DNA of 64,000 nucleotides from Lysobacterales bacterium. Lineage in GTDB: Bacteria; Pseudomonadota; Gammaproteobacteria; Xanthomonadales; SZUA-38. Under the pieces are notes generated by a model, which did not search any database, had not been told where the DNA came from, and worked only from the letters and a program-made list of their open reading frames with translations. The stretch covers positions 62,001-126,000 of the forward strand of contig JANQOZ010000023.1 of NCBI GenBank assembly GCA_028285525.1, written 5' to 3'. Below are positions 27,188 to 43,005 of the stretch, piece by piece; within the stretch, counting starts at the first letter, position 1; every line of letters starts with the position of its first letter. The translations under genes were made by a program, and so were the position numbers.

Positions 27188-28905
27188 GATACGTCTCGTA
27201 CAGGCAAGTCGGGATTCCGGCGCCGGTGCTCGGCGATCGTCAGCGGCGTGCGTGACCGCGGAATCTTGTGAACAAAGTTGTAGCGGGCGATGTGATAACT
27301 CGGGTCAAAGCCATAGAAGTTGGCGCGCATGCGGGCCAGCTCTTCGTCCCGGTACTGGGCCAGAGGCTTGCGCGCTTCGTCCCGATCGCGCTGCTGGCGC
27401 TTGTTTTCCAGCCGGTCCTTAAAGTCCATTGCGGCCGCCAGGGCCGCAGCCGCTTGCTCAACGGCCGGCATAAAGCTGTCGCGACGCTGCGTCAGCGAGC
27501 GGTCAATCAACCCCAGCGACAGCGCCTCCGCGACGCCGACCGGCAGACGCGAAGCCATGATCTGCGCCGCCCGCTCCTCTCCGCAGCAGCGTGGGAGCAG
27601 GTAGGTCCAGTACTCCGACCCGAAGAGATTCCCCATGTCTTTGTAGTGAGGGTTCAGGGTCACCTCGCCATGCGACCAGACTTCGTCAGCCGCCCGGGCC
27701 AGGAAGACGCCGCCCGCGCCGGCATTGCCGCGCAGCGCGGCCACGGTCAGGCAGGACGTCGTGCGAATGATGGCCTCGCTGATGTCGTCGATCGCATTGA
27801 TGTTCCGCCAGGATTCGTCAGCCGCGCTTTCCGCTGCTTCGATCTGGTTGAGGTCCATACCGTTGGACCAGAATTCCGGCCCGCCGCACAGCACGATCAC
27901 TCGCGGCGCTGACGCCACCGCGTCCCGATACGCGCTGAGCAGCCGCTCGCACCGATCGGTGCTCATCGCGCCGTTGTAGAAGGGGAAATGCAGAAAGCCG
28001 ACGCCGTCTTGCTCGGTGTAGTGAATGTCGCGGTACCCGCCTTCCACGCTCAAATCATGCTCTCTGAGCGCTCCTGCTCGATCACTCAGCACCTGCACCG
28101 CCGGCAGCTTGAAGTTGTGGTCGCTGCGACGGTCGCGCAGACGGCCAAGCCAGGCGCCGCCGTCAGCTGTGGCCACGCCAACCGCTTCGCCGCTGCGTGC
28201 GACGATCGATCCCGGGGCCCCCTTCAGCATCGGAGCAGCATGGGCGTCATACAGAAACAGGTCTTTGCCGGTAATCGCGCTGAGTCCCGGATCGCGCAGC
28301 CCCGGAAAGCCATCCGCGCTCCGAATCTTGCGCAGCACCGTCGCCGTATCATCGACCAACCAGTCAATAACGCGGTCACCCTGTCTGGCCAGCGGCCGCT
28401 CGCGCCCCGCGGGCTGTCCAAAAGACGCCGGCGATTGCGGCTGATAGCGCCGGCTTTCGAAGCGTTCCACGGCCTGCATCACCGCTGACACAGCGGCGCT
28501 GGATACCTCGCCTCGATACAGGCTGCTCTTGCTGGCGGTACGGGTACTAAAGGTCTCGCTGGCCCAGATGTCGCCACCGTCCATCACTTCATTGGCCTGC
28601 AGGACTGTGACGCCCCAGGTCGACTCCTGATTCAGAATCGCCCAATCCAGCGCGGACGGACCGCGATCACCCACCACGCCCGGATGAACAATCAGGCAGG
28701 GCGTGCTGCGCCAGATCCGACCGGGGATCGCGCGTTTGAGGAAGGGAGCCACAACCAGATCGGGGCGGAACAGCTCGACCGCCTCGACAGACGTCGGATC
28801 GTTGATGTCGTATTCCACCGAGACGCGATGCCCGGCTCCCCGCAGCGCCACAAACAGCCTCTGCGCCAGGCTGTTGAAACTGTGGGTGAGAAAGAGAATA
28901 CGCAT
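27184..28905 (-). CDS. hypX: HypX/HoxX, CO-ligand synthesis enzyme for aerobic hydrogenase maturation
   Basis: A 573-residue two-domain protein. The N-terminal half is formyltransferase-like, with IVHPGVVGDRGPSALDWAI as the HypX hallmark, followed by a formyltransferase C-terminal-like segment. The C-terminal half is an enoyl-CoA hydratase/isomerase fold with LCGGPEFWSNGMDLNQIE and LRGNAGAGGVFLA, ending in a helical tail with DPSYHIARYNFVHK. HypX converts N10-formyl-tetrahydrofolate to CO for the Fe(CN)2CO centre when oxygen is present. Its presence fits an O2-tolerant hydrogenase. It begins 15 bp after hypE and overlaps hupR by four bases. Confidence 0.95.
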   Translation of the reverse strand: MRILFLTHSFNSLAQRLFVALRGAGHRVSVEYDINDPTSVEAVELFRPDLVVAPFLKRAIPGRIWRSTPCLIVHPGVVGDRGPSALDWAILNQESTWGVTVLQANEVMDGGDIWASETFSTRTASKSSLYRGEVSSAAVSAVMQAVERFESRRYQPQSPASFGQPAGRERPLARQGDRVIDWLVDDTATVLRKIRSADGFPGLRDPGLSAITGKDLFLYDAHAAPMLKGAPGSIVARSGEAVGVATADGGAWLGRLRDRRSDHNFKLPAVQVLSDRAGALREHDLSVEGGYRDIHYTEQDGVGFLHFPFYNGAMSTDRCERLLSAYRDAVASAPRVIVLCGGPEFWSNGMDLNQIEAAESAADESWRNINAIDDISEAIIRTTSCLTVAALRGNAGAGGVFLARAADEVWSHGEVTLNPHYKDMGNLFGSEYWTYLLPRCCGEERAAQIMASRLPVGVAEALSLGLIDRSLTQRRDSFMPAVEQAAAALAAAMDFKDRLENKRQQRDRDEARKPLAQYRDEELARMRANFYGFDPSYHIARYNFVHKIPRSRTPLTIAEHRRRNPDLPVRDVS

Positions 28906-28920
28906 CGGCGGCCCGGTACC

Positions 28921-29970
28921 TCAGCAGATCCGTGGCAGCTGTTCGCCGGTCAGCCAGTCCAAAACGCGGCTGCCGCCAAAGCTGGTTTCCATCTGGACAA
29001 ACCCGTGCTGGTCCTCGACCACTTTGCCGATGATCGCCGCGTCGCGGCCGAGCGGGTGAGCGCGCATCACCCCGAGCAGGCGCTCAGCGTCCGCATCGGC
29101 ACAGATACACACCAGCTTGCCCTCATTGGCGACATAAAGCGGGTCGAGGCCGAGCAGTTCGCAGGCCGCATGGACCGCGGGCTTCACCGGCACGGCATCC
29201 TCGTCGAGCATCATGCCAACGCCGGACTGCTGAGCCATCTCATTGAGCGCCGTCGCGAGCCCACCGCGGGTCGGGTCGCGCAGGCAGTGGATCTGATCAC
29301 TCGCCTCTACCAGGCTCGCGACCATGGTGTGTAGCGCCGCGGAATCGCTGCTCAGGCTCGTTTCAAACTCGAGGTTCTCGCGGCTCGACATAATGGTCAC
29401 GCCGTGGTCGCCCAGGCTGCCGCTGACCAAAAGGGCGTCACCCGGCTGCGCGCGGTCGCCGGAGATGTGAACGCCGGGCGGCACCACGCCAACACCGGTG
29501 GTCGTGATAAACACACCGTCGCCCTTGCCGCGCTCAACCACCTTGGTATCGCCCGTCACTACCGGAACCCCGGCATCCTCGGCGGCGGCCGCCATGCTGG
29601 CGACGATGCGCTCAAGGTCCGCCAGCGGAAACCCTTCCTCCAGGATAAAGCCGGCAGACAGGTAGAGCGGCTTCGCCCCGGACATCGCAACGTCGTTAAT
29701 CGTGCCGTGGACGGCCAGAGAACCGATGTCACCGCCGGGAAAAAACAGCGGGGAAATCACGTGTCCATCCACGCTCATCACCATCCGCCCGGCGGGCACG
29801 TCAAACGCCGCCTGGTCGTTGCCCTGACGCAGCAGCGGGTTGTCCAGATGCTTGAGAAACAGTTCCTCAATCAGCTGCGCCATGGCGCGACCGCCGCCGC
29901 CGTGACTCATATCAACCTGCGCGTTTCGGGTCTTAATCGGCACCGGAAATCGTCTCGCCACCGCGCTCAT
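28921..29970 (-). CDS. hypE: HypE, hydrogenase maturation thiocyanate-forming protein
   Basis: A 349-residue HypE ending in LPRIC, whose terminal Cys receives the carbamoyl group from HypF and is dehydrated to thiocyanate. The PurM-like ATP-binding fold is seen in HGGGGRAMAQLIEELF, SVDGHVISPLFFPGGDIG, GTINDVAMSGAKPLY and LRDPTRGGLATALNE. The length is normal for the family. The start codon overlaps the hypD stop (ATGA), so the HypD-HypE pair that assembles the Fe(CN)2CO unit is translationally coupled. Confidence 0.97.
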   Translation of the reverse strand: MSAVARRFPVPIKTRNAQVDMSHGGGGRAMAQLIEELFLKHLDNPLLRQGNDQAAFDVPAGRMVMSVDGHVISPLFFPGGDIGSLAVHGTINDVAMSGAKPLYLSAGFILEEGFPLADLERIVASMAAAAEDAGVPVVTGDTKVVERGKGDGVFITTTGVGVVPPGVHISGDRAQPGDALLVSGSLGDHGVTIMSSRENLEFETSLSSDSAALHTMVASLVEASDQIHCLRDPTRGGLATALNEMAQQSGVGMMLDEDAVPVKPAVHAACELLGLDPLYVANEGKLVCICADADAERLLGVMRAHPLGRDAAIIGKVVEDQHGFVQMETSFGGSRVLDWLTGEQLPRIC

Positions 29971-31118
29971 GCCGCGACCCCCCGCTTGGATTCAGCCGGC
30001 TGCCGGAAGCGGCCATAGCTGTAGTAAGCCGCGCAGGCACCTTCGGAGGACACCATGCAGGAACCGAGCGGGTTGTCCGGCGTGCAGGCTTTGCCAAACA
30101 GTTTGCAGTCCGTGGGGCGCTTGGCGCCCCGCAGAATCGCCGGGCACTCGCAGCTTTTGACCTCGGAGGCTTTGGCCTCGGGAATGTCAAAGCGCACCTC
30201 CGCATCCAGGGCCTCGAACTGCGACTTGATCTTCAGAGCGCTGTAGGGAACCAGACCCAGACCGCGCCATTCAAAACTGCGCCGGAGCTCAAACACTTCA
30301 GCGACCAGCGCCTGAGCCTTCAGGTTGCCGTCGCGGGTGACGACCCGCGTGTATTCGTTTTCCACCTCGTGTCGACCTTCGTTGAGCTGACGAATCAGCA
30401 TCAGCGCCGACTGCATGACGTCGAGCGGCTCAAAACCGGCGATGACCACGGGCCGCTGATACTCCTCGGCGAAGAACTCGTAGGGCCGGCTGCCGATAAT
30501 GGAGCTGACGTGTGACGGACCAAAAAAGCCGTCGATGGACACACTGCCGATCTCCCGCACCTCGGGCGACTCGAGAATGTTTTGAATGGCCGCCGGCGTC
30601 AGGACGTGGTTGCAGAATACGCTGAAGTTCTCAAGCTTCTCCGCCAAAGCCTGCCGGATCGCCACCGCCGTTGCGGGCGTGGTTGTCTCAAAACCGATCG
30701 CAAAAAACACGACCTCGCGATCAGGCGTTTCCCGCGCGATGCGCAGCGCGTCCTGGGTCGAGTACACCATGCGCACGTCTGCGCCAGACGCCTTGATTTT
30801 CATCAGGCTCTGACGCTTGCTGGCGGGCACGCGAAGCAGGTCTCCGTAGATGCACAGAATGGTGTCGTGCTCGAGCGCCAGGTGAATGGCGTTGTCGATA
30901 CGGCCGATGGGCAGCACGCAGACCGGGCAACCCGGACCGTGCACAAACCGGACGTTGTCCGGCATCAGATCCTGCACGCCGTAGCGGAAGATGGCGTGCG
31001 TATGGCCGCCGCAAAACTCCATCAGGTTGTACTGACGGCCGGGGTCCGCTTCGCGTTTGATGGCAGCCGCCAGGTTTTTGGCCAGCGAACGCTGGCGAAA
31101 CTCGTTGACGTACTTCAC
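29967..31118 (-). CDS. hypD: HypD, Fe(CN)2CO assembly scaffold
   Basis: A 383-residue HypD starting at GTG, which overlaps the hypC stop. The three conserved Cys regions are present: EFCGGHTHAIFRYGV, VHGPGCPVCVLP, and the C-terminal [4Fe-4S] ligands spread through CECPAIL, TDCKLFGKAC and LGSCMVSSEGACAAYY. HypD forms a complex with HypC and supplies electrons for cyanation of the iron. Length and motif order are standard, with no sign of degradation. Confidence 0.97.
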   Translation of the reverse strand: MKYVNEFRQRSLAKNLAAAIKREADPGRQYNLMEFCGGHTHAIFRYGVQDLMPDNVRFVHGPGCPVCVLPIGRIDNAIHLALEHDTILCIYGDLLRVPASKRQSLMKIKASGADVRMVYSTQDALRIARETPDREVVFFAIGFETTTPATAVAIRQALAEKLENFSVFCNHVLTPAAIQNILESPEVREIGSVSIDGFFGPSHVSSIIGSRPYEFFAEEYQRPVVIAGFEPLDVMQSALMLIRQLNEGRHEVENEYTRVVTRDGNLKAQALVAEVFELRRSFEWRGLGLVPYSALKIKSQFEALDAEVRFDIPEAKASEVKSCECPAILRGAKRPTDCKLFGKACTPDNPLGSCMVSSEGACAAYYSYGRFRQPAESKRGVAA

Positions 31119-31351
31119 GCCTGACCCTCCGGATCGAGGCCCGCTTCGGCAAATAGAGCGAGGGTGCGCTCCGCCTCTTCCGGGCTGATTTTGTTGAGCG
31201 CGTACCCGACGTGAATCAGCACAAAGTCATCCACGGCGACATCCTCGACCAGCGCCAGGGAGACCTCTTTTTTGACCTCGCCAAGCGCGATGGTGGCGGT
31301 GGCGGTGTCACGATCGATGGCCACAACCTGGCCGGGCACCGCTAGGCACAT
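31115..31351 (-). CDS. hypC: HypC, hydrogenase maturation chaperone
   Basis: A 78-residue HypC with the invariant N-terminal MCLAVPGQV, in which Cys2 binds the iron unit, and the conserved [13 protein letters not shown] segment whose His also contacts iron. It chaperones the Fe(CN)2CO moiety between HypD and the large subunit. It overlaps hypB by ten bases and hypD by four (GTGA). A longer paralogue, hupF, lies at 35750-36070 in the same operon. Confidence 0.97.
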
Positions 31352-32253
31352 ACCGCTGCTCCGTCGCTGACACGCTGGTGTGCCTCGCTGATCCAGGCAT
31401 AGAACTCGTCCATGCCCTCACCGCTGGTGGCCGAAACCTGGAGCACCTGGATGTCCGGGTTAACGCGGCGGGCGTTGGCGATGCAGGCCTCAACGTCGAA
31501 CGACAGGTACGGCAGCAGGTCAACCTTGTTGAGCACCATCAGGTCGGAGGCCGCAAAAATGTCCGGGTACTTCAGCGGTTTATCCTCCCCCTCGGTGACC
31601 GAGAGGATCACCACCTTGTGATGTTCGCCAAGATCAAACGCCGCTGGGCACACCAGATTGCCGACGTTCTCAATAAACATCAGGCTCTGATCGTCCGGCG
31701 CAAGCGCCTCCATGGCGTGTCCGACCATGTGGGCGTCGAGATGGCACCCTTTACCGGTATTGACCTGCAGCGCGCGAGCGCCGCTGGCCCGGATGCGCTC
31801 CGCGTCGTTGGACGTCTGCTGATCTCCCTCGACGACGCAGACCGGCACGTCACCCTGAAGGTCGGTGATCGTCCGCGAAAGGAGCGTTGTCTTGCCGGAC
31901 CCGGGGCTGGAAACAAAATTGAGCGCCAGGATTTCTCGGTGGCCGAGAAAGTGACGGTTGGCGTCAGCGTACTGATCATTCTTGCTGAGAATATCCGTTT
32001 CGATCTGCACCATCTTTGCCTGGGTCAGGCCCGGCACGTGAGCTCGGGCGGGCCCCTGGCCGTAGTGATGGTGATCGCCGTGATCCAACCCGGAAACATG
32101 GGTGCTTTCGGAATCGTGCTTGTGATGATGGTGATCGTGGTCATGGTGGTGGTGGCTGTGATCGCCGCCCGGCTCGTCGTGCTGGTGATCACGATCGAGG
32201 GTCTGACCTTCCACTGTCACTTCACCGCTGGCGCAGCCGCAGACGGTACACAT
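31342..32253 (-). CDS. hypB: HypB, nickel-inserting GTPase with a large His-rich region
   Basis: About 303 residues. Two tandem ATGs (32256, 32253) are possible; the second is preferred because GGAGG is then 7 bases upstream and the protein begins MCTVCGC, the N-terminal CxxCGC nickel site. The next ~60 residues hold about 18 histidines in clusters ([22 protein letters not shown]), a nickel-storage region. The GTPase domain has [10 protein letters not shown] (Walker A), a metal-site Cys-His in [22 protein letters not shown], and the NKVD specificity motif. It delivers Ni to the large subunits together with HypA. Confidence 0.97.
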
Positions 32254-32594
32254 CATTCAACCTCCAGTTCTTTGACTTTCATTTCATCGCCCTCCACCAC
32301 CTGCAGCTGGTAGCTGCCGCATTTCGGACAGGCATCAAATCGCTGCCGTACGGCGACATGAGTGCCACACTGCATACACCAGGCTTTGCCCGGCACATCA
32401 ACAATCTCTAGCGTCGCCTGCTCGGCGACAGTGCCGCGCGTGACGGCATCAAAGGTGAACCGCATCGCTTCCGGATCTACGCCGGCCAGCGCGCCGATTT
32501 CCAGCCAGACTGACTTGACCCGCGAAAACCCTTCGCGGGCGGCGCTGTCCTGAACAATCTGCAGCACACCCTCGGAAAGCGCCATCTCGTGCAT
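32253..32594 (-). CDS. hypA: HypA, nickel metallochaperone
   Basis: A 113-residue HypA. The start at 32594 gives the invariant [10 protein letters not shown], with the nickel-ligand His2; the frame is open upstream only because it overlaps hupK. A structural zinc site is formed by Cys73/Cys76 (WCMQCG) and Cys89/Cys92 (CPKCGS). It passes nickel with HypB. The ATG overlaps the hupK stop by one base (TGATG), and its own stop overlaps the hypB start. Confidence 0.97.
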
Positions 32595-33712
32595 CAGTGC
32601 ACCTCCAGCGAGTAGCCGACGCAGGGATCGATGGCCGTCACCAGCAGCGCCGCCTGCCTGCGGAGCGTCGACTCGTGCCGGCTGTCCAGCGCCGACAGGC
32701 TTCGAGCGAGAACCCCTCGCGGGTGGCAGTTCCACTCGGTGGGAGCCAGCACCTGATAGCGCTCGATGTGCTGGCCGTCCAGCACGGCGCGATGGACCAG
32801 GCGGCCCCGCGCAGCGTCGATCTGCGACAGGCCGGTACGCGCCGGCAATTGGTTCTCGGTGAGACCTGATGCGCCGGCATCGCCTGCATCAAGCTGTTCC
32901 GGAATACGCGCGAGTTCTGCCAGCAGTGCAACTACGCGCGTCAACGCTCCCGCGCCCCAGCGTCCGAGGGCCTGCTTCACAAGCCGGACGTGCTGCTGTC
33001 TCAGCAGGGGCGTCGTTTCCCGGGTTTCTCCCTCCCATTCGGGGAAAGCCACAAACTCATCAGACTCGTCGTCGTTGAGTCGCTGGTTGAGCTCGTCGTT
33101 CGCCATCGGCGGCAAAAACCGCGGCTCGGTAGCGCCCGCGTCTTCCCAGCGATGCGCAAGCAGGAAACCGACCAGCCGCGCGGCCGGCGTATCCACCTCG
33201 CGGCTCCAGCCGGCCAACGCCTCGCAGTCCAGCGCGACCCAGTCGACCGGCGGCCGCCCGAAAACGCCGGACCGCAGTAGATCGGTGAGCTGTGTTCTTA
33301 AGCTGGCCAGCTCACTTGAGGAAGGCTGCGCCGCAGCGACGGAACGCAGCGTTTGATTGAAGCTGCCGAGCGCCGCCAGCTGCGCCGGGTCAGCGGCGGT
33401 TTCCAGCAGCGCAGGCCAGTCGATCAGCACGCGCCAGAGGTGTTCGCGCGCCGTCTCCAGCAAGACCAGCTCCCGGTCGCGAACCTGTTCGTGGTTGGTC
33501 TCACCAGCGGCTGCTGACAGTGCCTGGCGGCCGGCCCGGAGCTGGGCCTGAGCGCAGACGCTGTAGAGCCGAGGGAGCAGGGTCAGCGCTTCGCTAACGG
33601 ATCGGTTTTCCAGCAGCCGGGCGGCCCCTACCGGGCGGCTGGATCGGATCGAGACACGTCCCTGCCCTCGGCGCGCCGAATGGATCACGATGCTGAGCGG
33701 CGCTGGGGTCAC
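32594..33712 (-). CDS. hupK: HupK/HoxV, degenerate large-subunit-like scaffold for hydrogenase assembly
   Basis: A 372-residue protein starting at GTG (GTGA overlap with hupJ). It is recognisably related to hydrogenase large subunits. PRLYSVCAQAQ (Cys53) lines up with PRICGICSVAQ of HupV, and the C-terminal end DPCVGYSLEVH with DPCMVCTVH. One cysteine of each ligand pair is lost, leaving Cys53 and Cys364. GRLVHRAVLDGQHIERYQVLAPTEWN corresponds to the large-subunit pre-C-terminal segment. Known HupK/HoxV proteins act as transient carriers of the Fe(CN)2CO unit during maturation of the membrane-bound enzyme. Confidence 0.92.
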   Translation of the reverse strand: MTPAPLSIVIHSARRGQGRVSIRSSRPVGAARLLENRSVSEALTLLPRLYSVCAQAQLRAGRQALSAAAGETNHEQVRDRELVLLETAREHLWRVLIDWPALLETAADPAQLAALGSFNQTLRSVAAAQPSSSELASLRTQLTDLLRSGVFGRPPVDWVALDCEALAGWSREVDTPAARLVGFLLAHRWEDAGATEPRFLPPMANDELNQRLNDDESDEFVAFPEWEGETRETTPLLRQQHVRLVKQALGRWGAGALTRVVALLAELARIPEQLDAGDAGASGLTENQLPARTGLSQIDAARGRLVHRAVLDGQHIERYQVLAPTEWNCHPRGVLARSLSALDSRHESTLRRQAALLVTAIDPCVGYSLEVH

Positions 33713-34203
33713 GGCGACTGTTCTGCCGTTGCGTTGCCGCCGCCCCTTAAAAACGAGCGTCGGGACATGGCCGGCCGGTTCTTGCTGGCAGCTTCTTCAG
33801 CCGGCGCCTCCATAAGGCCTTTGAGAACCTCCCGGGCCGTGGCAACCGCGGCGGCGTGGTCTTCAAACTCGAACATCGGCGAGAACAGCGAACACATGCG
33901 GTAGCTACCGATGTCGTCCTCGCTGCCGTGGATAAACTCAAACTCACCGGCGGGAAACGGCACGCACTCCTTTTCACCGGACGGCGGCGCCTGATCTCCC
34001 TCGATCTCATCGCGCGGCAGCAGCATCAGGTTCATGAACCAGGGCGTCACAAGCACGCCAAGATGCTCGTCCTGCCAGGGGCCAAAACCCACGGCTTCGA
34101 CTTCGATCTCGGGATTGAGGATCGGAATGTCAGCCATTCTCTCCCGGGCGATGCGGCGGAAGGTGGTTTCGAGCCGATCACTGACCTCCGCCGCGTCGGT
34201 CAT
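33709..34203 (-). CDS. hupJ: HupJ/HoxT, HybE-family hydrogenase assembly chaperone
   Basis: A 164-residue HybE-family protein. The family core includes NPEIEVEAVGFGPWQDEHLGVLVTPWFMNLMLLP, FPAGEFEFIHG and a MCSLFSPMFEF stretch. These proteins are thought to guide small-subunit folding and gate Tat export. The C-terminal extension contains MSRRSFLRGGG, which looks like a twin-arginine motif although it is at the wrong end for export. The HupS precursor has TRRSFLK. It overlaps hupI and hupK by four bases on either side. Confidence 0.92.
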   Translation of the reverse strand: MTDAAEVSDRLETTFRRIARERMADIPILNPEIEVEAVGFGPWQDEHLGVLVTPWFMNLMLLPRDEIEGDQAPPSGEKECVPFPAGEFEFIHGSEDDIGSYRMCSLFSPMFEFEDHAAAVATAREVLKGLMEAPAEEAASKNRPAMSRRSFLRGGGNATAEQSP

Positions 34204-34433
34204 TGGTCGGTTTCCGCCTCGAGGACCATAAAATCGTTCTTGCTGCCGTCACACTCAGGACAGCTCCAGTGGTCCGGCAGCGCAGCGAACGGCGTGCCGG
34301 GGGCAATTTGCCAGTACTCGTCACCTTCAGCGGGGTCGTAGACGTGCCAGCAGATCTTGCATTCCAGACGGGTGTCGTCAGAGATTTTGCTCGCGTCACC
34401 GCCGAAGGAACCACCGAAGAACTCGTCTTTCAC
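34200..34433 (-). CDS. hupI: HupI/HoxR rubredoxin
   Basis: A 77-residue protein from the GTG at 34433 (GTGA overlap with hupH); the upstream part of the frame is inside hupH. It has a rubredoxin iron site with Cys25/Cys28 (CKICWHVYDP) and Cys58/Cys61 (CPECDGSKNDF) plus the conserved WxIxPGTPFxxLPDxWxCP context. A ~20-residue N-terminal extension (GGSFGGDASK) precedes the fold, as in other hydrogenase-operon rubredoxins. It is thought to protect or reduce the small-subunit Fe-S clusters during assembly in air. Confidence 0.95.
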   Translation of the reverse strand: MKDEFFGGSFGGDASKISDDTRLECKICWHVYDPAEGDEYWQIAPGTPFAALPDHWSCPECDGSKNDFMVLEAETDQ

Positions 34434-35287
34434 CGGTAGACCTCGAGAATCTCGCGAAGCCGCTCGGCGCTGTCCTCCAGGTCTTCCCGCGCCGCGCAGG
34501 CCACCGCGGGCACCCGGCTGATCTCCACGGTATTGAGGATCAGCGCATCCTGAGAGTTGAAGTACTGAACCCACCAGACGTTACGTGTCCCCGTGCTGGT
34601 GATTCGGCAGTTGCCATAGCCACGAGAAAGAATCACGGCAGGGCCTGAACCGAGCCTTTCGATGAGGTACTGGAGGTCTTCATCGGTGTTGGGGAGCAGC
34701 GACAGATTGACCACGTAGGGTTCGGTGTGGTCTTCGGACAGCCGAAGCTTGTCTGAGATTTCCACCAGCAGCGAAGGCGCGTTGGCCAGGCCCTCCGGCA
34801 GCTTCTCGGCATCCACCACGAGCTCCGCCGCTGCGTGGGTAAAGACCCCGTCACTGATCAACGTCGGGATTGCACCGACCTCGACCACGTCTCGTTCCAC
34901 CGATTCGTCGTCGCTCAGGTATTGCACACGCCATACGCCGGCCAGGACGGATTCCTGAACCCTCGCTTTGACTGGCCCTTCGTAGATGATGCTGACCTCC
35001 CCGTTGCCGAGCACCTGGTCGATGAGGTGCAGATTGGCGTCGTCCAGCCCCGTCAGCGGGAGGACGACTGCCGGGGCATCGGGTGTCTGATTTGCCAGGG
35101 TGGTGGCCAGCGTGCCGAGGAACTCGATGCCGGGCTCGAGGCCCTGGATCTCGTCAGGCTCGGGAACCACCGGGACCTCGTAGGTCCAGGTCTCGGTCGG
35201 CAGCTGCATGTAGTCGAGCTCTACGCCGTCCTCTTCGGGTGGCTGCGAGCCGGCTTCAACGGTAACGGGAATAGGAAACTCTTTCAT
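34430..35287 (-). CDS. hupH: HupH/HoxQ hydrogenase assembly protein
   Basis: A 285-residue protein from the ATG at 35287; upstream in-frame sequence is intergenic. It aligns by eye with the HupH/HyaF family: a conserved PEPDEIQGL...FLGTLA region, LDDANLHLIDQVLGNGEVSI, VKARVQESVLAGVWRVQYL, GSGPAVILSRGYGNCRI and NVWWVQYFNSQDALILNTVEI. HupH works with HupG and HupJ on the small subunit before Tat export. It lies 16 bp after hupG and overlaps the rubredoxin gene. Confidence 0.93.
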   Translation of the reverse strand: MKEFPIPVTVEAGSQPPEEDGVELDYMQLPTETWTYEVPVVPEPDEIQGLEPGIEFLGTLATTLANQTPDAPAVVLPLTGLDDANLHLIDQVLGNGEVSIIYEGPVKARVQESVLAGVWRVQYLSDDESVERDVVEVGAIPTLISDGVFTHAAAELVVDAEKLPEGLANAPSLLVEISDKLRLSEDHTEPYVVNLSLLPNTDEDLQYLIERLGSGPAVILSRGYGNCRITSTGTRNVWWVQYFNSQDALILNTVEISRVPAVACAAREDLEDSAERLREILEVYR

Positions 35288-35303
35288 AGAATATCGGCCT
35301 GAT

Positions 35304-35729
35304 TCAGTGTGCGGGCGCGGAAGCGTTTTCGTCGGGGGCAAACATCGGCGGCGGCTCACTCGGCTCAGCGGCGAGAATCATCTGCACGTCTTCCAGGTAG
35401 TCCGACCAGTCGCGGATACCGGTAATTGCGCCGACATATTCACCGCCTCGCAGGAACACCAGCGTCGGGATTTTCAGAAAGTGGTAACGCAGCTTCATTT
35501 CCCGGTGCGCGGGAAACGGCACAACGGCAACCGCAAACTTGCCGGCAAACGCGTTCATCAGTTCCGGCAGAATCACCGCCAGATCGTCGGCCTCTGGTAT
35601 CGGCTTCATGCCCTCAGCAAACACCAGCACCACGTCGTGGTTGGATTCGATAAAAGCATCGAGCTCGGGGCCGGCCAGCGACGGATAGCCCTCGCGTTCC
35701 TGCATGTTCTTAATGGCTTGGGAAAACAC
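35304..35729 (-). CDS. hupG: HupG/HoxO, thioredoxin-like Tat proofreading chaperone
   Basis: A 141-residue protein with a GTG start; AGGAG lies 8 bases upstream. It has a thioredoxin-like fold of the HyaE/HupG type: VVLVFAEGMKPIPEADDLAVILPEL, FAVAVVPFPAHREMKLRYHF, KIPTLVFLRGGEYVGAI. The catalytic CxxC is absent, as expected. Family members bind the Tat signal of the hydrogenase small subunit. The C-terminal tail is proline-rich. It lies 20 bp downstream of hupF. Confidence 0.93.
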   Translation of the reverse strand: MFSQAIKNMQEREGYPSLAGPELDAFIESNHDVVLVFAEGMKPIPEADDLAVILPELMNAFAGKFAVAVVPFPAHREMKLRYHFLKIPTLVFLRGGEYVGAITGIRDWSDYLEDVQMILAAEPSEPPPMFAPDENASAPAH

Positions 35730-35749
35730 TCATGGGCTCCTTTCGGACG

Positions 35750-36070
35750 TCAGCCGCGGTTGGGCAGTTTGTTGGCTGCGGCGGCCGACGGCGGCAGCTG
35801 AGGCTCCCGGTCGATCAGATCCGCAAAAAGATGGTCGATGTTGGTCTCGCCCCGCATCACGAGATTGACGGCGGTTACTGCGTCGGTGATTTGTGCGGCG
35901 TCGGCTTCGGTCAGCACTTCCCGGGCGGCGTCCAGGAACGTCAGCAGCCAGGTTCCTACCGGCTGGTCCCCGACCAGCAGCGTGCTGATCTGACGGGTCT
36001 CACCCATACCCTCACAGATCGCGTAGCCCTCACCGGACTCCTTGACCCGCATGGGCACGCCGATGCACAT
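35750..36070 (-). CDS. hupF: HupF/HoxL, HypC-like chaperone for the uptake hydrogenase
   Basis: A 106-residue HypC/HupF-family protein with MCIGVPMRV (Cys2) and a longer C-terminal part than the 78-residue HypC of the same operon, typical of HupF/HoxL. LVGDQPVGTWLLTFLDAAREVL is the family core, where the conserved residue pattern after the second beta strand matches HupF. It protects the large subunit and delivers the metal centre in the presence of oxygen. The ATG overlaps the hupD stop (TGATG). Confidence 0.94.
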   Translation of the reverse strand: MCIGVPMRVKESGEGYAICEGMGETRQISTLLVGDQPVGTWLLTFLDAAREVLTEADAAQITDAVTAVNLVMRGETNIDHLFADLIDREPQLPPSAAAANKLPNRG

Positions 36071-36768
36071 CAGTATTTGCCCCGGTGATCGACATCCACC
36101 GCCATGGCGCCTGGGTCCAGCGGTGCGGGACGATAGGCCACGTCGAATGCGTCAGACTTCAGCACCCGCTCGTCGCCGACGCGGCAGGCTTCCGCTTCGC
36201 TGGGGCGGAGCGATTCATAGCGGGCCAGATCTATTTCAGCGCCGACAATCGATTCTGTTTCGGACAGCGGCTCTGCCCGTCGTGAAGCCTTAACGCCCAG
36301 CTGATCCAGCCAGCTCACAGCCGCCTCGACGGCCGGCGTCAGCTGCTGCTTCATCAGCCGCGAAAGACTGCCGCCAAAATCCTCGATCTGAACCGGCTGA
36401 ACGCCGACAAGCAGCAGCTCGTCGGGGTAGCGACCGAGCATCTCTGCGCTGGCCAGTACTTCTTGAAACCCCGTCTGGTGGAGGCTGACCTTTTTGGCCC
36501 CGAGGTAGCTGGGGACGTCAGCACCCTTGATCAGTTTCAGGGTGCCCGGCTCGAGGCCATAGTCGATGGCGTCAAAGATCACCAGATTGTCGGCCTGCTC
36601 CACGTGCTGCAGCAGATACATGCCCTGGGTCCCACCGTCCATCACGGTGACGGAATCATCGAATTCATAGTGACGATGAAGCTCGTCAGCGGCGCGAACG
36701 CCAAATCCTTCGTCTGCCCACAGAACGTTGCCGATACCAAGGATCAGGGTTTGAGTCTTATCGGTCAC
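36070..36768 (-). CDS. hupD: HupD/HoxM hydrogenase maturation endopeptidase
   Basis: A 232-residue protease starting at GTG (GGGAG 8 bases upstream). Family motifs are GIGNVLWADEGFG (nickel-binding Glu), IFDAIDYG (Asp) and SLHQTGFQEVL (His), followed by LLVGVQPVQIEDFGGSLS. It cleaves the C-terminal tail of HupL after nickel insertion. A tail of about 40 residues rich in acidic and polar residues extends beyond the usual ~195-205-residue length. It is the first gene of the 18-gene maturation/sensing unit, 35 bp downstream of the expected start of the sigma-54 promoter transcript. Confidence 0.95.
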   Translation of the reverse strand: MTDKTQTLILGIGNVLWADEGFGVRAADELHRHYEFDDSVTVMDGGTQGMYLLQHVEQADNLVIFDAIDYGLEPGTLKLIKGADVPSYLGAKKVSLHQTGFQEVLASAEMLGRYPDELLLVGVQPVQIEDFGGSLSRLMKQQLTPAVEAAVSWLDQLGVKASRRAEPLSETESIVGAEIDLARYESLRPSEAEACRVGDERVLKSDAFDVAYRPAPLDPGAMAVDVDHRGKY

Positions 36769-36813
36769 GCACGCACTCCCGGGTCAAAAAACGCTTTTGC
36801 GGATACGGTGCTG

Positions 36814-36829
36814 AGCAAGTTCAGTGCCA
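36814..36829 (-). promoter_or_regulatory. Sigma-54 promoter of the hupD maturation/sensing operon
   Basis: On the minus strand the sequence reads TGGCACTGAACTTGCT, with GG and GC separated by exactly ten bases as required for -24/-12 elements. Only the base after TGGCAC departs from the usual consensus. Transcription should begin near 36803, giving a leader of about 35 bases before the hupD GTG. The operon encodes HupR with an intact GAFTGA loop, so autoregulation by its own product is likely. Confidence 0.85.
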
Positions 36830-36855
36830 GTCAGCGAATCCCATGGAAACTTACT

Positions 36856-36873
36856 TGTCAGGAAAGCCTGACA
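36856..36873. promoter_or_regulatory. Perfect inverted repeat upstream of the hupD promoter
   Basis: TGTCAGG-AAAG-CCTGACA is a perfect 7-4-7 inverted repeat. Its centre is about 60 bases upstream of the predicted start of the hupD transcript. No T-run follows on either strand, so it is not a good terminator. It could be an activator or repressor site; I found no copy near the hupS promoter. The binding protein is unknown. Confidence 0.45.
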
Positions 36874-36984
36874 GTCGCCATGTGGAAGAAACTATTCCAG
36901 TTACGGGATAAAACGTATAGGTACATTCCACAGGAAGTCAGGATTTCAGGGTGCTTTAACCACAAAATCACGCGAAACAGATAT

Positions 36985-36999
36985 TGAGAATGATTCTCT
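36985..36999. promoter_or_regulatory. Fur-box-like palindrome between the two hydrogenase operons
   Basis: TGAGAATGATTCTCT has the 7-1-7 symmetry of the Fur consensus (TGATAAT-N-ATTATCA), and its core GAGAATGATTCTC is perfectly palindromic. It lies about 180 bases upstream of the hupD promoter and downstream of the hupC terminator. Iron-responsive control of this iron-demanding system is inferred, not shown. It could also serve a short transcript not recognised here. Confidence 0.5.
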
Positions 37000-37156
37000 T
37001 TACGTCAAGTGGAAGCTCGCTTACCAGCAGCAGCTGGCGCCTCCTGTCTCGCCGGATTGACAGTTACCAGCGCACTGCGGCCGGGGAACGATTGGCCGAT
37101 TGTTTGGGGTGGCTTAAGGACAGGGAAAGGGAATCCAAACATCCCGGACCCGGGCG

Positions 37157-37191
37157 AAAAAAAGGCGCCTGAGCCTGAGCTCTGGCGCCTT
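37157..37191 (-). terminator. Intrinsic terminator of the hupSLC operon
   Basis: On the minus strand an 8-bp stem (AAGGCGCC / GGCGCCTT) with a 14-base loop is followed by seven Ts. It begins about 57 bases after the hupC stop. It should end the structural transcript before the maturation operon promoter, in line with two separate promoters. Confidence 0.85.
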
Positions 37192-37247
37192 GGGCAATCC
37201 AGCGATGACCGGGGCTGGTTCGCTGGATGTCTCGCGTTAGCTCCGGC

Positions 37248-37961
37248 CTAGCGGCCGTCGTCGACGTCCCGATCGTCCTTGAACATCCGCCAGCCGCTGA
37301 CCATCGTGCTGATCAGACTCTGGCGGGACATGATGTCCTCCCGGAAGGCGACGTAGATGTGGGTCATGGCAAAAACGATGATGACCCACATACCCAGGTG
37401 GTGCCAGGTGTGCACGTCCTGGCTCTGCCCAAAGAGCGGCACAACCCAACTGGTGAACATCGTGTGCGCCCAGCTGCCGGCCTGGGTGCCTTCACCATAG
37501 AGTGCAAAGCCGGTGATGATCATGAAGATCGTGCCCCATACGAGCACAAAAAACATGACCAGCGTGGCCAGCGGATTGTGGCCGGAATACTTGCGGGGCT
37601 CGCCGGCAAAAAACATGTACCACTTCCACTCATGCCATACCCCTCCCCACCAGTCTTTGCTGAAGAAGGGCGGGAAGAAGACCTGCCGCGAGTGCTTGTT
37701 GCCGACCAGGGCCCAGTAGATCCGGAATACGAACCCGATGGCAAAGATATAGCCCGCGGTGAAGTGGGCAAAGCGGATGTACCCCATCAGGAAGTGATCA
37801 CTCGCCTCACCGGGCATGGTGGGCAGCGGGCTGCCGATGAAGTAGCCCGTGACACAAAGCACGAGCACCGACAGGGCGTTGACCCAGTGCCAGATGCGCA
37901 GCGGCGCTTCGTAGACGTAGATTGCCGGCTGAGCGCTGGCGGTGATGGCCGGGGGGCTCAT
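37248..37961 (-). CDS. hupC: HupC/HoxZ cytochrome b subunit of the uptake hydrogenase
   Basis: A 237-residue membrane protein of the Ni/Fe-hydrogenase b-type cytochrome family. It has four or more hydrophobic helices and heme-ligand histidines in LRIWHWVNAL, RFAHFTAGYIFAIGFVFRIYW, SWAHTMF and DVHTWHHLGMWVIIVFAMTHIYVAFRED. It anchors HupSL to the periplasmic face of the inner membrane and passes electrons to quinone. The ATG overlaps the stop of the preceding small gene (ATGA). It is the last gene before the terminator. Confidence 0.96.
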   Translation of the reverse strand: MSPPAITASAQPAIYVYEAPLRIWHWVNALSVLVLCVTGYFIGSPLPTMPGEASDHFLMGYIRFAHFTAGYIFAIGFVFRIYWALVGNKHSRQVFFPPFFSKDWWGGVWHEWKWYMFFAGEPRKYSGHNPLATLVMFFVLVWGTIFMIITGFALYGEGTQAGSWAHTMFTSWVVPLFGQSQDVHTWHHLGMWVIIVFAMTHIYVAFREDIMSRQSLISTMVSGWRMFKDDRDVDDGR

Positions 37962-38176
37962 GACCGCTTGCCCCGCTTACGCCATGCGCTGAGCCCGATT
38001 GCGCCGGCGGCGAGGGCCGCCAGCACCAGCAGCGCGACGTGCCACGGGTCGCTCAGCAGGTGAGTTGAGACCTCGCGCGTTGTCATGTCGTGATGGTGGC
38101 CCGGGTGGGCCAGCAGCGGGCCCGGTAGCGTGGCCAGAACCATGAGCCAGATCGTTTTGCTTTTGATTCGATTCAT
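37958..38176 (-). CDS. Small His-rich exported membrane protein between hupL and hupC (unknown)
   Basis: A 72-residue protein with a good Shine-Dalgarno site (GGAG, 8 bases from the ATG). It is 15 bp after hupL and overlaps hupC by four bases, so it is clearly part of the operon. Residues 1-23 are a signal peptide ending PLLA; the mature chain would start HPGHHHD, with His at its N-terminus and three more within five residues. One transmembrane helix (about 46-65, HVALLVLAALAAGAIGLSAW) and a basic tail RKRGKRS follow. I recognise no named family, and the known hup/hox operons I recall have no gene here. Metal binding or HupC assembly is a guess. Confidence 0.8.
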   Translation of the reverse strand: MNRIKSKTIWLMVLATLPGPLLAHPGHHHDMTTREVSTHLLSDPWHVALLVLAALAAGAIGLSAWRKRGKRS

Positions 38177-38191
38177 TTGCTGTTCTCCGGG

Positions 38192-39997
38192 TTAGCCGCC
38201 AATCGGCGAGGTGGTGACGTTGGCCAGCTCTTCGCCATCTTCCGACATCACGTGCGTTGAACACGCCAGGCATGGATCAAAGCTGTGCAGGTTGCGGAGG
38301 ATTTCCACCGGTTCGTTCGGCCGCTCAACCTTGGTGTTCATCATCGAAGCTTCAAAAGCGCCGATGTTGCCGGCCTCATCACGCGGTGACCCGTTCCAGG
38401 TGGTCGGCACCACACACTGGTAGTTTTCGATCTTGCGATCTTTGATGCGGATCCAGTGGGCGAGTGCACCGCGAGGCGCCTCGGTGAAGCCAACCCCTTT
38501 GCTTTCCGCCGGCCAGTCCGCCGGGTCCCACTTCTCACCGTTGTGGGTGGCGGTGTCGCCGGCCTTGATATTGGCGATCAGCTTGTCGAAGAAATACAGC
38601 TGCTTGTCCGCCGCCCACTGGGCCTCCAGGGCTCGGGCCGCGGTACGACCGAGGGTGGAGAACAGCGCGTCGACCGGCACGTCCAGTTCCCTGAGCACGA
38701 AGTTGATTTGCTCGGTGATTTCCTCGTGACCCTTCGCGTAGCCCACGACGTAGCGGGCCAGCGGACCCACCTCCATCGCGTGACCCCGCCAGCGCGGCGC
38801 CTTGATCCAGGAGTAGCTGGCGTTTTCGTCCAGTTCCTCGATGTGATGCTGCGAGCCCTTGGCGGTGCTGACATCGAAGTTCGGCTCGGTCACGCCGTCC
38901 CAGGGATGCAGTCCTTTGACACCCTGCGGGTACTCGTACCAGGAGTGCGGCACAAATTCCTGGATCTCATCCGGGTCACGCAGGTCGACCGGCATCACCT
39001 CTTTCAGGTTGCCGTTGATGATCGCGCCGCTGGGCATCAGCAGGTTCTCGGGTGAAAAATCGTTGGCGCGGTCCGGGATGTCCCCGTAGGCCAATACGTT
39101 CTGGCCGGAGATACCACCGCCATACAGCCACCCTTTATAGAACTTGCCGATCGCAAGGATGTCGGGGATGTAGACGTTGTTGATGAACGTCTGGGTGTCC
39201 TTCAGGATCTGGTGGATCTGATTGAGGTTCACCATATTCAGACCGCCTACCCCGCCGACACCGTCGACGTTAATTGGCGACGGGGTCCCACCCACCGTCC
39301 AGTTCGGGTGCGTGTCCTTGCCGCCCAGAATGGTCCGGGTTTTCATAATCTCTTTCTGGAAATCCAGCGCTTCCAGGTAGTGGGTCACCGCCATCAGATC
39401 AGCTTCCGGCGGCAGCAGGTAGGCCGGATTGGTCCAGTAGCCGTTCTTGAACGGCCCGAGCTGACCGGATTCCACAAACTTCTTCAGCCGGTTCTGGATA
39501 TCGCGGAAGTAGCCGGGGGAAGAATGCGGGTGATGCGGTGATACCTGCTGCTGCAGAGCAGACGTTGCCTTCGGATCTGCCGCCAGCGCGTTGACCGGGT
39601 TGACCCAGTCCAGCGCATGCAGATGATAGAAATGCACCAGGTGATCGTGCACCTGCAGTGAGAGCTGCATGATGTTGCGGATGCTGTTCGCGTTCTCCGG
39701 GATTTCGATCCCCAGGGAATCTTCCACCGCTCGGACCGAGGTCAGCGCATGAGTGCCGGTGCACACGCCGCAGATGCGCTGGGTAAAGGCCCAGGCGTCG
39801 CGAGGGTCGCGACCTTTCAGAATCACCTCCAGACCCCGCCACATCGTGCCGCTGGAGACCGCGTTGGTGATCACGTTGTTTTCGTCGATATTGACCTCGG
39901 CGCGCATATGTCCCTCGATGCGCGTCACCGGGTCGACCACAACACGCTGGCCTCCCGTGTCCAGCTGGTATCCGTTGGGAGTTGTGCTGGTCGCCAT
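38192..39997 (-). CDS. hupL: [NiFe] uptake hydrogenase large subunit HupL/HoxG
   Basis: A 601-residue catalytic subunit. Nickel ligands are Cys76/Cys79 in [10 protein letters not shown] and Cys576/Cys579 in [10 protein letters not shown] 19-residue tail ([19 protein letters not shown]) follows His582 and should be removed by Hup[16 protein letters not shown] and [19 protein letters not shown] are further family landmarks. Length and motifs fit the membrane-bound group 1d enzymes. The ATG overlaps the hupS stop by one base (TAATG). It oxidises H2 at the periplasmic side, being carried through Tat as a complex with HupS. Confidence 0.98.
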
Positions 39998-41094
39998 TAT
40001 TCCTGCTCTCCTTTGTGCTGTTTGTTCTGCTGCGCACGCTTGAGCACGGAGCCCGCGGCGTGTGCTGCCGTTGCCACGCCAACCACCGCCGCCGCGGTGC
40101 CGCCGATGCGGTCAGCATTCGACTCAATGCCGAACTGCGGAATGTTGGTCAGGCGATCGTAGAAGCTGCCCTTGTCCCAGAAGCCGTCTTCCGAGCAGCC
40201 AATGCACGGATGGCCCGCCTGGATCGGAAACGACAGCCCGCCGTTCCAGCGGACCGTGGAGCACGCGTTGTACGTGGTCGGGCCTTTGCAGCCGACCTTG
40301 TACAGGCAATAGCCGCGGCGGGCAGACTCGTCGTCGAACTTCTCGACAAACTGCCCGGCGTCGAAGTGCGGACGGCGGTAACACTTGTCGTGAATCCGCT
40401 GGCTGTAGAACATCAGCGGCCGGCCCTGGCGGTCCAGTGACGGCAACTTCCCGAAAGTCAGAATGTAGGTAACAACGCCCGTCATCACCTCAGCGATGGG
40501 CGGACAGCCGGGTACCTTGATGATCGGCGCCGTGCCGATATCCGGAACCTTGTGAATGGGCGTGGCGCGGGTCGGGTTCGGCCGCGCCGCCTGGACGCAG
40601 CCCCAGGAGGCACATGACCCCCAGGAGATGATCGCCATGGCGTCTTTGGCGGCCTTCCTGAGCTGCTCGGTATAAGGCCGGCCACCGATAATGCAGGACA
40701 TCCCGCCAGTCTTGCCCTCGTCCAGCCCGGGATTACCCTCGCAGGCCAGGATGTAGTTGCCTTTGTACTTCTCGATCGTCTCGTCGATGATCGCTTCAGC
40801 TTCGTGTCCGGCTGAAGCCATGATGGTGTCGTCGTAATCGAGCGACAGCATCGACAGGATCACGTCTTTCACCAGCGGGTGCGCGGAACGGATGAACGAC
40901 TCCGAGCAGCAGGTGCATTCCAGGCCGTGGAGCCACAAAACCGGAATCCGGGGTTTGTTCTCCATCGCGTTGGCAATCTGCGGCGCAAAGGTCGGACCCA
41001 GCCCCATGGCCGCAGCGGTCAGGCTGCAGTATTTAAGAAAGCTGCGACGGGTAATGCCCTGCCGGCGCATGACGTCGTAGAAAGATTCAATCAT
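39997..41094 (-). CDS. hupS: [NiFe] uptake hydrogenase small subunit HupS/HoxK, O2-tolerant type
   Basis: A 365-residue precursor with a Tat signal ([10 protein letters not shown], cleavage near ANA at 43). The proximal cluster ligands are Cys60, Cys62, Cys63 (LECTCCSES), Cys161 and Cys166 (GSCASWGC), and Cys197 (PGCPP). The two extra cysteines (62 and 166) are those that create the [4Fe-3S] cluster of O2-tolerant membrane-bound hydrogenases; after removal of 43 residues the first three become 17, 19 and 20, as in HoxK. The distal/medial ligands follow ([37 protein letters not shown]). A hydrophobic C-terminal helix ([15 protein letters not shown]) anchors it near HupC. Confidence 0.98.
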
Positions 41095-41163
41095 TGTGCG
41101 GGTCCTCTTCTTGCTTTTCGGTAAGGAGGCTGACGCCTGCCGAGCCAGTGGTACTGCCTTTAA

Positions 41164-41180
41164 AGCAAAGGCCGTACCAG
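41164..41180 (-). promoter_or_regulatory. Sigma-54 promoter of the hupSLC operon
   Basis: The minus strand reads CTGGTACGGCCTTTGCT. GG and GC are ten bases apart, and the match to the -24/-12 consensus is full except for T in place of C in TGGCAC. The predicted start lies near 41153, about 60 bases before the hupS ATG. It is the same class of promoter as that at 36814-36829, which supports joint control by HupR. Confidence 0.82.
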
Positions 41181-41328
41181 CTTGAGAAACCCGTTATATT
41201 TCCGTTGGTTAGAACGCTAAGACGATTTAGGCACCGGGTGAGACCGGCTGCGCTGCGCCCGCTCCGATTGCGCGAGTGGAAAACTGCTTACCACCTCGAC
41301 CGGGGGCTAAACCGGACGGCAGGAAGGC

Positions 41329-41754
41329 CTACTCAAACGACTCCAGCAGCAGGTTCGACTCGGTCGCGGAAACACCCGGGAGCAGTCGGATTGCGCCGAC
41401 AATATGATTAAACGAAGCCAGCGAATCGGTCTGGATTTCGGCGATCAAATCCCAGCGTCCGGTGGTGTGGTGGACAGCCGTCACCTGCGGGTTGCCGCGG
41501 AGCTGAGCGATCACGCCCGGTTCCTCTGCGCTCTCCGTCTTGATGCTCATCAGCGCACGCACCGCCGTGCTGGAGAGCTCAGCGCCAAGCTTCACCGTAT
41601 ACCCTGTTACGACACCCTGAGCTTCGAGGCGCCGCATTCGGTTTTGCACCGTCGCCCGCGAGACGCCGAGAGCCCGCGCCAGGTCCACCACCGAGATCCT
41701 GGCGTTGTCGCGCAGCAGCGCAATCAGCTTCCGATCCTTGCTGTCCAGCTCCAC
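41329..41754 (-). CDS. Lrp/AsnC-family transcriptional regulator
   Basis: A 141-residue regulator starting at GTG. The N-terminal helix-turn-helix is NARISVVDLARALGVSRATVQNRMRRLE, and the C-terminal RAM domain has VRALMSIKTES, VIAQLRGNPQVTAVHHTTGRWDLIAEIQT and LLPGVSATESNLLLES. It lies divergent from the ornithine-cyclodeaminase-like gene at 41895, the usual Lrp arrangement for an amino-acid-responsive control of the neighbour. It is unlikely to govern the hydrogenase operon downstream, which has its own promoter. Confidence 0.92.
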   Translation of the reverse strand: MELDSKDRKLIALLRDNARISVVDLARALGVSRATVQNRMRRLEAQGVVTGYTVKLGAELSSTAVRALMSIKTESAEEPGVIAQLRGNPQVTAVHHTTGRWDLIAEIQTDSLASFNHIVGAIRLLPGVSATESNLLLESFE

Positions 41755-41839
41755 CTGAACGCCCTACCTGAACATTTCGACAGTCTAATAGTAGCAAAAC
41801 GACAGAATTAAGAGCTTATTGATCATTTTTAGGTCTAAA

Positions 41840-41854
41840 AGTTAGCCGCTAACT
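41840..41854. promoter_or_regulatory. Palindrome in the lrp / ornithine-cyclodeaminase-like intergenic region
   Basis: AGTTAG-CCG-CTAACT is a perfect 6-3-6 inverted repeat between the divergent starts at 41754 and 41895. It lies 41 bases upstream of the plus-strand ATG, a position suited to an Lrp-family operator. Binding by the adjacent Lrp protein is inferred. Confidence 0.45.
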
Positions 41855-41894
41855 CCTTTACGCTTCGTGTTCGATTCACCCAAGGAGTATCGCC

Positions 41895-42944
41895 ATGACC
41901 CGTTTTGTTGATGTACCAACCATCAGTCGCCTGATCCGTCGAGTCGGCCCGGCCGAGTTTGTGCGGGGCATGGCAGACACCATGCGGGCAGACTTCTGCC
42001 GCTGGGAAAGCTTTGATAAGTGCGCGCGGGTCGCCAGCCACAGCGATGTCGGCGTCATCGAGATCATGCCGATCTCCGATGGACAGCGGTACGGCTTCAA
42101 GTATGTGAACGGGCACCCCGGGAACCCTGCGCGTGGCGTCTCCACCGTTATGGCGTTTGGCGCGCTAGCGGACGTCGACACCGGTTACCCGGTGCTGCTG
42201 TCCGAACTGACGCTGGTCACGGCCTTTCGGACAGCCGCGGCCACAGCACTCGCCGCCCAGGCGTTGGCACGGCCGGAATCACAATCCTTGGGCCTGATTG
42301 GCTGCGGTGCGCAAAGTGAGTTTCAGGTGCTGGCCTTCCATACGCTGCTGGGCATCAACGACGTGCGGGTGTTCGACATCGACGAGGCCGCTATGGAGAA
42401 ACTTCGCCGGCATATGTCCCGATTCCCAGGTCTGCAAGTCCGACCCGCGGGCTCTGCGGCTGAGGCCGTTCGCGGCGCTGACCTCGTGACGACCTGCACC
42501 GCCGACAAGACCTGGGCCACGATTCTGACCCCCGACATGGTGGAACCGGGCATGCACATCAACGGCGTAGGCGGCGACTGCCCGGGCAAGACCGAGCTCC
42601 ATGCCGACGTGCTCCGCCAGGCCAAGGTTTTTGTCGAGTACGAACCGCAGACCCGCGTGGAAGGAGACATTCAGCAGCTGCCGGCCGACCATCCGGTTCA
42701 CGATCTTTGGCGTGCCGTTGCGGACCCCAAGGCGGGGCGGGACAGTCAGGAGCAGGTCACCGTATTCGACTCGGTCGGCTTCGCGCTCGAAGATTTTTCG
42801 GCCTTGCGCTACGTCTACCAGCTGGCGCTGGAGCTGAATGAAGGGCAGGACATTGCCCTGATACCGGAGCTCGACGATCCGAAAGATCTGTTCGAACGCG
42901 CGCTGGATACCGCCGGACAGTCAATAACCCGCAAAGCGGCCTGA
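41895..42944 (+). CDS. Ornithine cyclodeaminase / mu-crystallin family protein
   Basis: A 349-residue protein with a strong AAGGAG site. The family pattern shows in GFKYVNGHPGNP (substrate loop with Lys), VSTVMAFGALADVDTGYPVLLSELTLVTAFRTAAATALAAQALA, the Rossmann glycine-rich LGLIGCGAQSEFQVLAF, and ADLVTTCTAD with GMHINGVGGDCPGKTELHADVL. Members use NAD to deaminate ornithine to proline or reduce related imines; which reaction applies here is not settled. It is divergent from an Lrp regulator and followed by a hairpin. Confidence 0.9.
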   Translation: MTRFVDVPTISRLIRRVGPAEFVRGMADTMRADFCRWESFDKCARVASHSDVGVIEIMPISDGQRYGFKYVNGHPGNPARGVSTVMAFGALADVDTGYPVLLSELTLVTAFRTAAATALAAQALARPESQSLGLIGCGAQSEFQVLAFHTLLGINDVRVFDIDEAAMEKLRRHMSRFPGLQVRPAGSAAEAVRGADLVTTCTADKTWATILTPDMVEPGMHINGVGGDCPGKTELHADVLRQAKVFVEYEPQTRVEGDIQQLPADHPVHDLWRAVADPKAGRDSQEQVTVFDSVGFALEDFSALRYVYQLALELNEGQDIALIPELDDPKDLFERALDTAGQSITRKAA

Positions 42945-42956
42945 TGGAATTCGAAG

Positions 42957-42984
42957 AGCTGGACGGCCGCACGGCCGTCCAGCT
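42957..42984. terminator. Strong hairpin between convergent genes, likely bidirectional terminator
   Basis: AGCTGGACGGCC and GGCCGTCCAGCT form a perfect 12-bp stem around a four-base loop. The plus-strand side is followed by only TTC after the stem, so it is a weak T-run. It lies between the cyclodeaminase-like gene and the convergent acyl-CoA dehydrogenase gene. Confidence 0.65.
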
Positions 42985-43005
42985 TTCACTGTCGCCAGTG
43001 GGCCG

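Follow-up and report, generated by a model that had tools for sequence, protein, structure and literature searches.

A 72-residue His-first protein encoded between hupL and hupC resembles the front of the HupE nickel permease and has relatives beside nickel-enzyme genes

The stretch of DNA analysed here (the window; 64,000 nucleotides from a Lysobacterales bacterium) contains a [NiFe]-hydrogenase operon in which a small gene, designated mini-HupE ("HupE-N"), lies between hupL and hupC. Profile and structure-model comparisons show that its product (MNRIKSKTIWLMVLATLPGPLLAHPGHHHDMTTREVSTHLLSDPWHVALLVLAALAAGAIGLSAWRKRGKRS, 72 aa) is homologous to the N-terminal module of the nickel permease HupE/UreJ but encoded on its own. 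This protein, and the related small proteins that we term minis, probably catch nickel outside the inner membrane for the use of nickel enzymes.

The gene in the hupL-hupC gap

The operon runs on the minus strand in the order hupS, hupL, mini gene, hupC, hupD, hupF/hypC-like, hupG/hyaE-like, hupH, rubredoxin and hupJ/hybE, with no hupE after hupD (Table 1). Fifteen nucleotides separate the hupL stop codon from the start of mini-HupE, which overlaps hupC by four bases (ATGA, 37958-37961). The initial annotation had described a small gene at this position, of 72 codons and with the same overlap, and both the sequence and the families of the neighbouring genes agree; mini-HupE is confirmed as a real gene and more than a chance open reading frame. 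The anatomy proposed for its product, an exported His-first protein with one helix and a basic tail, also stands, with export as a prediction and with the predicted N-terminal His conserved in every relative. The mature numbering used below depends on a signal-peptide cut after LLA predicted from sequence; on this numbering histidines occupy positions 1, 4, 5, 6, 16 and 23, and the soluble part comprises only about 20 residues. Scans of Pfam and NCBIfam gave only chance-level matches to the protein (SteA-like_C and Metal_resist; ArtM), neither a riboswitch nor any other Rfam match was found over positions 32000-43000, and promoter and terminator scans gave nothing better than the shuffle level.

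Table 1. Features of the mini-HupE locus (window positions; residue numbers refer to the unprocessed protein unless marked mature).
Feature	Position	Strand	Basis
mini-HupE gene ("HupE-N")	37958..38176	minus	72 codons + stop; profile E 1.5e-21 in own genome, model contains window protein
Ribosome-binding site GGAG, 8 nt 5' of mini-HupE ATG	38185..38188	minus	sequence
Predicted signal peptide, residues 1-23, cut after LLA	38108..38176	minus	sequence; AlphaFold helix 4-15; cleavage inferred
Predicted mature segment HPGHHHDMTTREVSTHLLSDPWH			
HPGHHHD, predicted mature N-terminus, residue 24 = H1	38087..38107	minus	H24 column invariant
His39 (mature H16) = first His of HupE HX5DH	38060..38062	minus	invariant; hhalign register
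His46 (mature H23) = last His of HupE HX5DH; Asp to Trp in window	38039..38041	minus	invariant, hydrogenase-linked minis
Single transmembrane helix, residues ~44-65	37982..38047	minus	hydropathy; AlphaFold helix 44-70, pLDDT ~90
Basic tail RKRGKRS, predicted cytoplasmic	37961..37981	minus	sequence, positive-inside rule
hupS, small subunit, Tat signal	39997..41094	minus	TIGR00391
hupL, [NiFe]-hydrogenase large subunit	38192..39997	minus	PF00374
hupC, b-type cytochrome subunit	37248..37961	minus	TIGR02125
hupD, maturation protease	36070..36768	minus	TIGR00140

Judged from their translations, the other minus-strand genes of the cluster (21869-33712) appear to encode a regulatory hydrogenase that senses H2 (HupUV/HoxBC), its HoxJ/HoxA-like sensor kinase and regulator of the NtrC type, and HoxX-like, HypE, HypD, His-rich HypB, HypA and HupK-like proteins. 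The HypB-like protein (31342-32256), which is encoded in the same cluster as mini-HupE, has a long His-rich N-terminal stretch and is likely to be a cytosolic nickel store.

Slot contents and relationship to HupE/UreJ

A survey of GTDB genomes scanned with HupL yielded 80 loci with a window-like large subunit. The position between hupL and hupC is occupied in these loci by a full HupE (187-202 aa), by a HupE piece of 121 or 149 aa, by a mini (62-78 aa), or by nothing; empty slots, in which the hupL-hupC gap is a few nucleotides, are found in many close relatives. The minis in the slot have in common a signal peptide, a start of the form AH-x-G-x-H, a second His and a single helix. The 121-aa piece is found in three loci (L095, L102 and L105; two from Methylococcales), whose genomes encode other full HupE-like copies besides. 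Class- and order-wide searches added further slot loci with both full HupE and minis, and a genome from the same family as the window (L143) has a full HupE in the slot. In Methylococcus capsulatus the gene order is hupSLECD.

The initial annotation had found no such gene among known hup and hox orders, which does not hold, as the gap is a recurrent HupE slot in which mini versions recur. Its description of the protein as unassigned is correct insofar as curated families give no match, but the same position is taken by full HupE in close relatives. The search it proposed, for the same small gene in the hupL-hupC gap of other genomes, succeeded through HupL synteny. A direct search with the window mini alone recovered no relatives in genome contigs or plasmids, because the family diverges fast. 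A tree of HupL built with FastTree places the window and the mini-carrying locus closest to it (L032) in a clade with loci that have a full HupE (L035/L143), with 98% support. Since the mini state takes about six changes on this tree, at least four of them on well-supported branches, the slot content changes repeatedly; the tree is compatible with shortening of a full gene and with gain of a mini.

Alignment of 21 minis (mean column identity 38%) leaves only H24, H39 and H46 invariant (mature 1, 16 and 23), and these columns correspond to invariant columns of HupE. Minis of the Thiodiazotropha clade have a spacing between the last two histidines that is shorter by two. HupE is a nickel permease, and the full HupE proteins in the slot (e.g. 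L038) have H1, G3, H16, D22 and H23 in the same register as the window mini. Comparison of mini and HupE profiles restricted to the mature part gave a score of 26.7 (E 1.7e-4), and the maximum in 100 column and block shuffles was 18.2. One 71-aa mini (L017/L142) exceeds the PF04955 cut-off (29.5 versus 23 bits, positions 2-53 of 179), and 8 of 22 minis match this family at E values up to 1. When a profile of 21 hydrogenase-linked relatives, window protein included (A1), was run over 369 genomes, the next-best matches after the minis were longer open reading frames, all ten of which, among those tested (124-193 aa as submitted), proved to be HupE_UreJ proteins (PF04955). AlphaFold models predict helices at residues 33-42 and 44-70 in the mini (mean pLDDT 77) and at 35-45 and 47-60 in a slot HupE (mean pLDDT 87); in both, a break of one residue separates a short helix from the membrane helix, and His residues lie at matching places. 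A sequence search found no solved HupE structure.

The likeness to HupE/UreJ (PF04955; e.g. Rhizobium leguminosarum HupE) thus covers the operon slot, the signal peptide, the conserved AH-x-G after it (A23, H24 and G26 in the window, given the predicted cut; invariant columns in HupE), the first-helix His pair and the helix-break-helix arrangement. We nevertheless do not class the window mini as HupE because of its Pfam score, which is below the cut-off and amounts to no PF04955 match, the loss of Asp from HX5DH, and the number of helices. The motif at the first membrane helix reads HX5WH in the window, with both His kept, whereas minis L017, L141, L183, L186, L188 and others retain HX5DH. After its signal peptide the mini has one membrane helix and lacks FHGHAH, in contrast to the model of full HupE, which has several more helices.

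Genomic neighbours and importers

We counted A1 matches as mini-size if the frame was up to 100 aa and covered at least 45 of the 70 model positions at E values up to 0.03. This rule, chosen after the list of matches was seen, gave 20 minis, 11 of them from loci outside the model, and all 11 held-out gammaproteobacterial minis adjoin nickel-enzyme genes. Two are located by hydrogenase genes (a hynL-type large subunit in G124, and hyaD with hypA/hypB in G043), six by ureD (G305, G163, G240, G150, G262 and G009:C25) and three by sodN (G157, G268 and G139); G360, which the size rule excludes, also adjoins hynL. Neighbour identities were confirmed by Pfam for UreD, Sod_Ni and the HypE AIRS domains (one case each), and otherwise rest on tblastn or inspection by eye. 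A phylum-wide search with a profile built from nickel-linked members (A3) provided 21 further small matches for which contexts were examined, and 13 of these adjoin hupL, hypE, ureD-like, ureG or sodN. Of the remaining eight, five belong to one genus, one lies within a B12 cluster next to a gene for a CbiX-like chelatase, and two others have no nickel gene nearby. The raw counts, which have no matched control set, make the enrichment beside nickel genes look large.

The five minis of a single genus (g413; L241, L243, L244, L248 and L240; e.g. AHSGHGHIEAASIWHWLFEFDHIGW) have no nickel gene that we could find nearby, and in the one annotated context (L241) the neighbour is tatC. The CbiX-linked mini and one other are members of DUF6732 (PF20506). 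The former (L257:3484-3714) lies directly 5' of the CbiX-like gene, which suggests that some members may serve cobalt. DUF6732, a family of unassigned function, resembles the minis in consisting of small His-first proteins with a signal peptide and one helix, but the window protein does not match it.

The importers encoded in mini-carrying genomes vary. Among HupE_UreJ_2, CbiM and NicO, the families sought, no constant partner was found in the genomes checked, some of which may be incomplete. The window genome has no PF04955 HupE, NicO or CbiM/NikM, and encodes two HupE_UreJ_2 permeases (L112, at G000:C98:126397-126858, and G000:C100:34768-35217), which are candidate partners of the mini. L112 is preceded by an exported open reading frame that has a His (SPHPLKLSL...) near its predicted signal cut, and the pair resembles an anglerase with its permease. 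Most Thiodiazotropha genomes possess CbiM and lack HupE_UreJ_2, and in two mini-carrying genomes of 1.6 Mb (G219 and G319) we found no CbiM, NicO or HupE_UreJ_2, and no full HupE with the mini profile. We reject the idea that a mini is always accompanied by another full HupE, as there is none in the window genome or in most Thiodiazotropha genomes with minis.

Proposed role and alternatives

Nickel is what hydrogenase, urease and Ni-SOD share, which leads us to propose nickel supply as the common role of the minis. The N-terminal His (His1) of HupE/UreJ-2 proteins has been found experimentally to bind metals (PMC12537917). As the mini keeps the HupE entrance and lacks the channel, we infer from these two lines a membrane-anchored, periplasmic nickel-capture site. 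Cleavage of the signal peptide would leave a free N-terminal amine and His1, which together with His4-6, His16 and His23 may form a putative Ni(II) site where the inner membrane faces the periplasm, with the helix and basic tail as the anchor. The mini would capture or concentrate nickel and pass the metal to an importer, by which the co-encoded hydrogenase would be metallated; the metal could be received by an importer other than HupE, probably not the same one in every species. We lean somewhat towards this account of a stand-alone homologue of the HupE front that hands captured nickel on for hydrogenase metallation. The occurrence of some minis in non-nickel contexts and the empty slot in many relatives count against it, as do the missing PF04955 match and motif Asp of the window protein and the want of a constant importer among the families sought.

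Two other systems bear comparison. The anglerases Ang-1 and Ang-2, which are fused to HupE_UreJ_2 (PMC12537917), share with the mini a His as first mature residue (a prediction for the mini, where it is conserved in all members), the periplasmic side, a HupE-type system and a proposed capture of metal, but the mini has no permease fusion and, judging from its length and AlphaFold model, none of the separate folded metal-binding domain. NikL, NikN and CbiN (PMC2667541, PMC2868824) are membrane-bound accessory subunits of ECF nickel/cobalt transporters; they serve nickel uptake, as is proposed for the mini, and show a similar linkage to nickel genes. These subunits, in contrast, belong to NikMQO operons, and the window genome lacks CbiM/NikM; the distinction is drawn from operon context.

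It is conceivable, though improbable, that the membrane-bound hydrogenase includes the protein as a small subunit with a structural or assembly role, stabilising HupL-HupC contact or HupC heme loading much as CydX acts in cytochrome bd. The position between hupL and hupC, the translational coupling to hupC, and a size and single helix typical of such subunits fit this idea, but homologous minis lie by urease and Ni-SOD genes without a cytochrome b, and others follow large subunits of the HynL type, downstream of which no hupC was found. Many close relatives moreover have hupLC with an empty gap, and the full-length occupant of the slot is a nickel permease. Contact with the heme-bearing HupC, which had been suggested from the window sequence, is therefore rejected as the main role.

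Metal binding, as copper or nickel, had been suggested as well, and the metal role is supported, with nickel preferred over copper on account of the HupE homology and of the hydrogenase, urease and Ni-SOD genes nearby. Copper is often the preferred metal of N-terminal His sites, and the mini might accordingly bind or buffer transition metals such as copper or zinc in the periplasm with no specificity for nickel. An anglerase domain tested by EPR indeed bound Cu2+ (PMC12537917). We consider such a general function unlikely, since the neighbours are mostly nickel genes, and once probably cobalt, and no copper gene was recognised next to the minis examined.

Decay of hupE into a functionless remnant would agree with the presence of a full HupE at this position in the sister clade, with the 121-aa intermediates and with the loss of the motif Asp in the window copy. 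The related mini genes are, however, under purifying selection: dN/dS lies between 0.09 and 0.35 for close pairs, apart from one uninformative, near-identical pair (1.06). His1, H16 and H23 are conserved over great divergence, the gene is precise, having a start, a stop and a tail of its own, and minis recur in other nickel operons, so that we regard a remnant as a poor explanation. That several mini copies together make up an independent, minimal nickel permease is very unlikely, for although G219 and G319 show none of the importers sought, these genomes may use NikABCDE, and the mini lacks FHGHAH (the second HupE His motif) and the other HupE helices.

The nickel-capture reading may extend beyond the window. 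We put forward, tentatively and at slightly less than even confidence, that Proteobacteria possess widespread, unnamed single-pass His-first microproteins resembling the HupE front, encoded in operons of three unrelated nickel enzymes ([NiFe]-hydrogenase, urease and Ni-SOD), which would capture periplasmic nickel with various importers or alone. No description of such a gene in a hup, ure or sodN operon was found in the literature searched, which lay mostly outside subscription journals. The route of nickel from the periplasm to its enzymes is poorly known where HupE, NikM and NicO are absent, as in the window genome, and a protein of 72 residues that retains no more of a permease than its metal-facing entrance would supply a small, testable part of this route and could serve to mark nickel genes. 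Its existence further suggests that parts of permeases can survive as microproteins, which automatic annotation overlooks or labels hypothetical.
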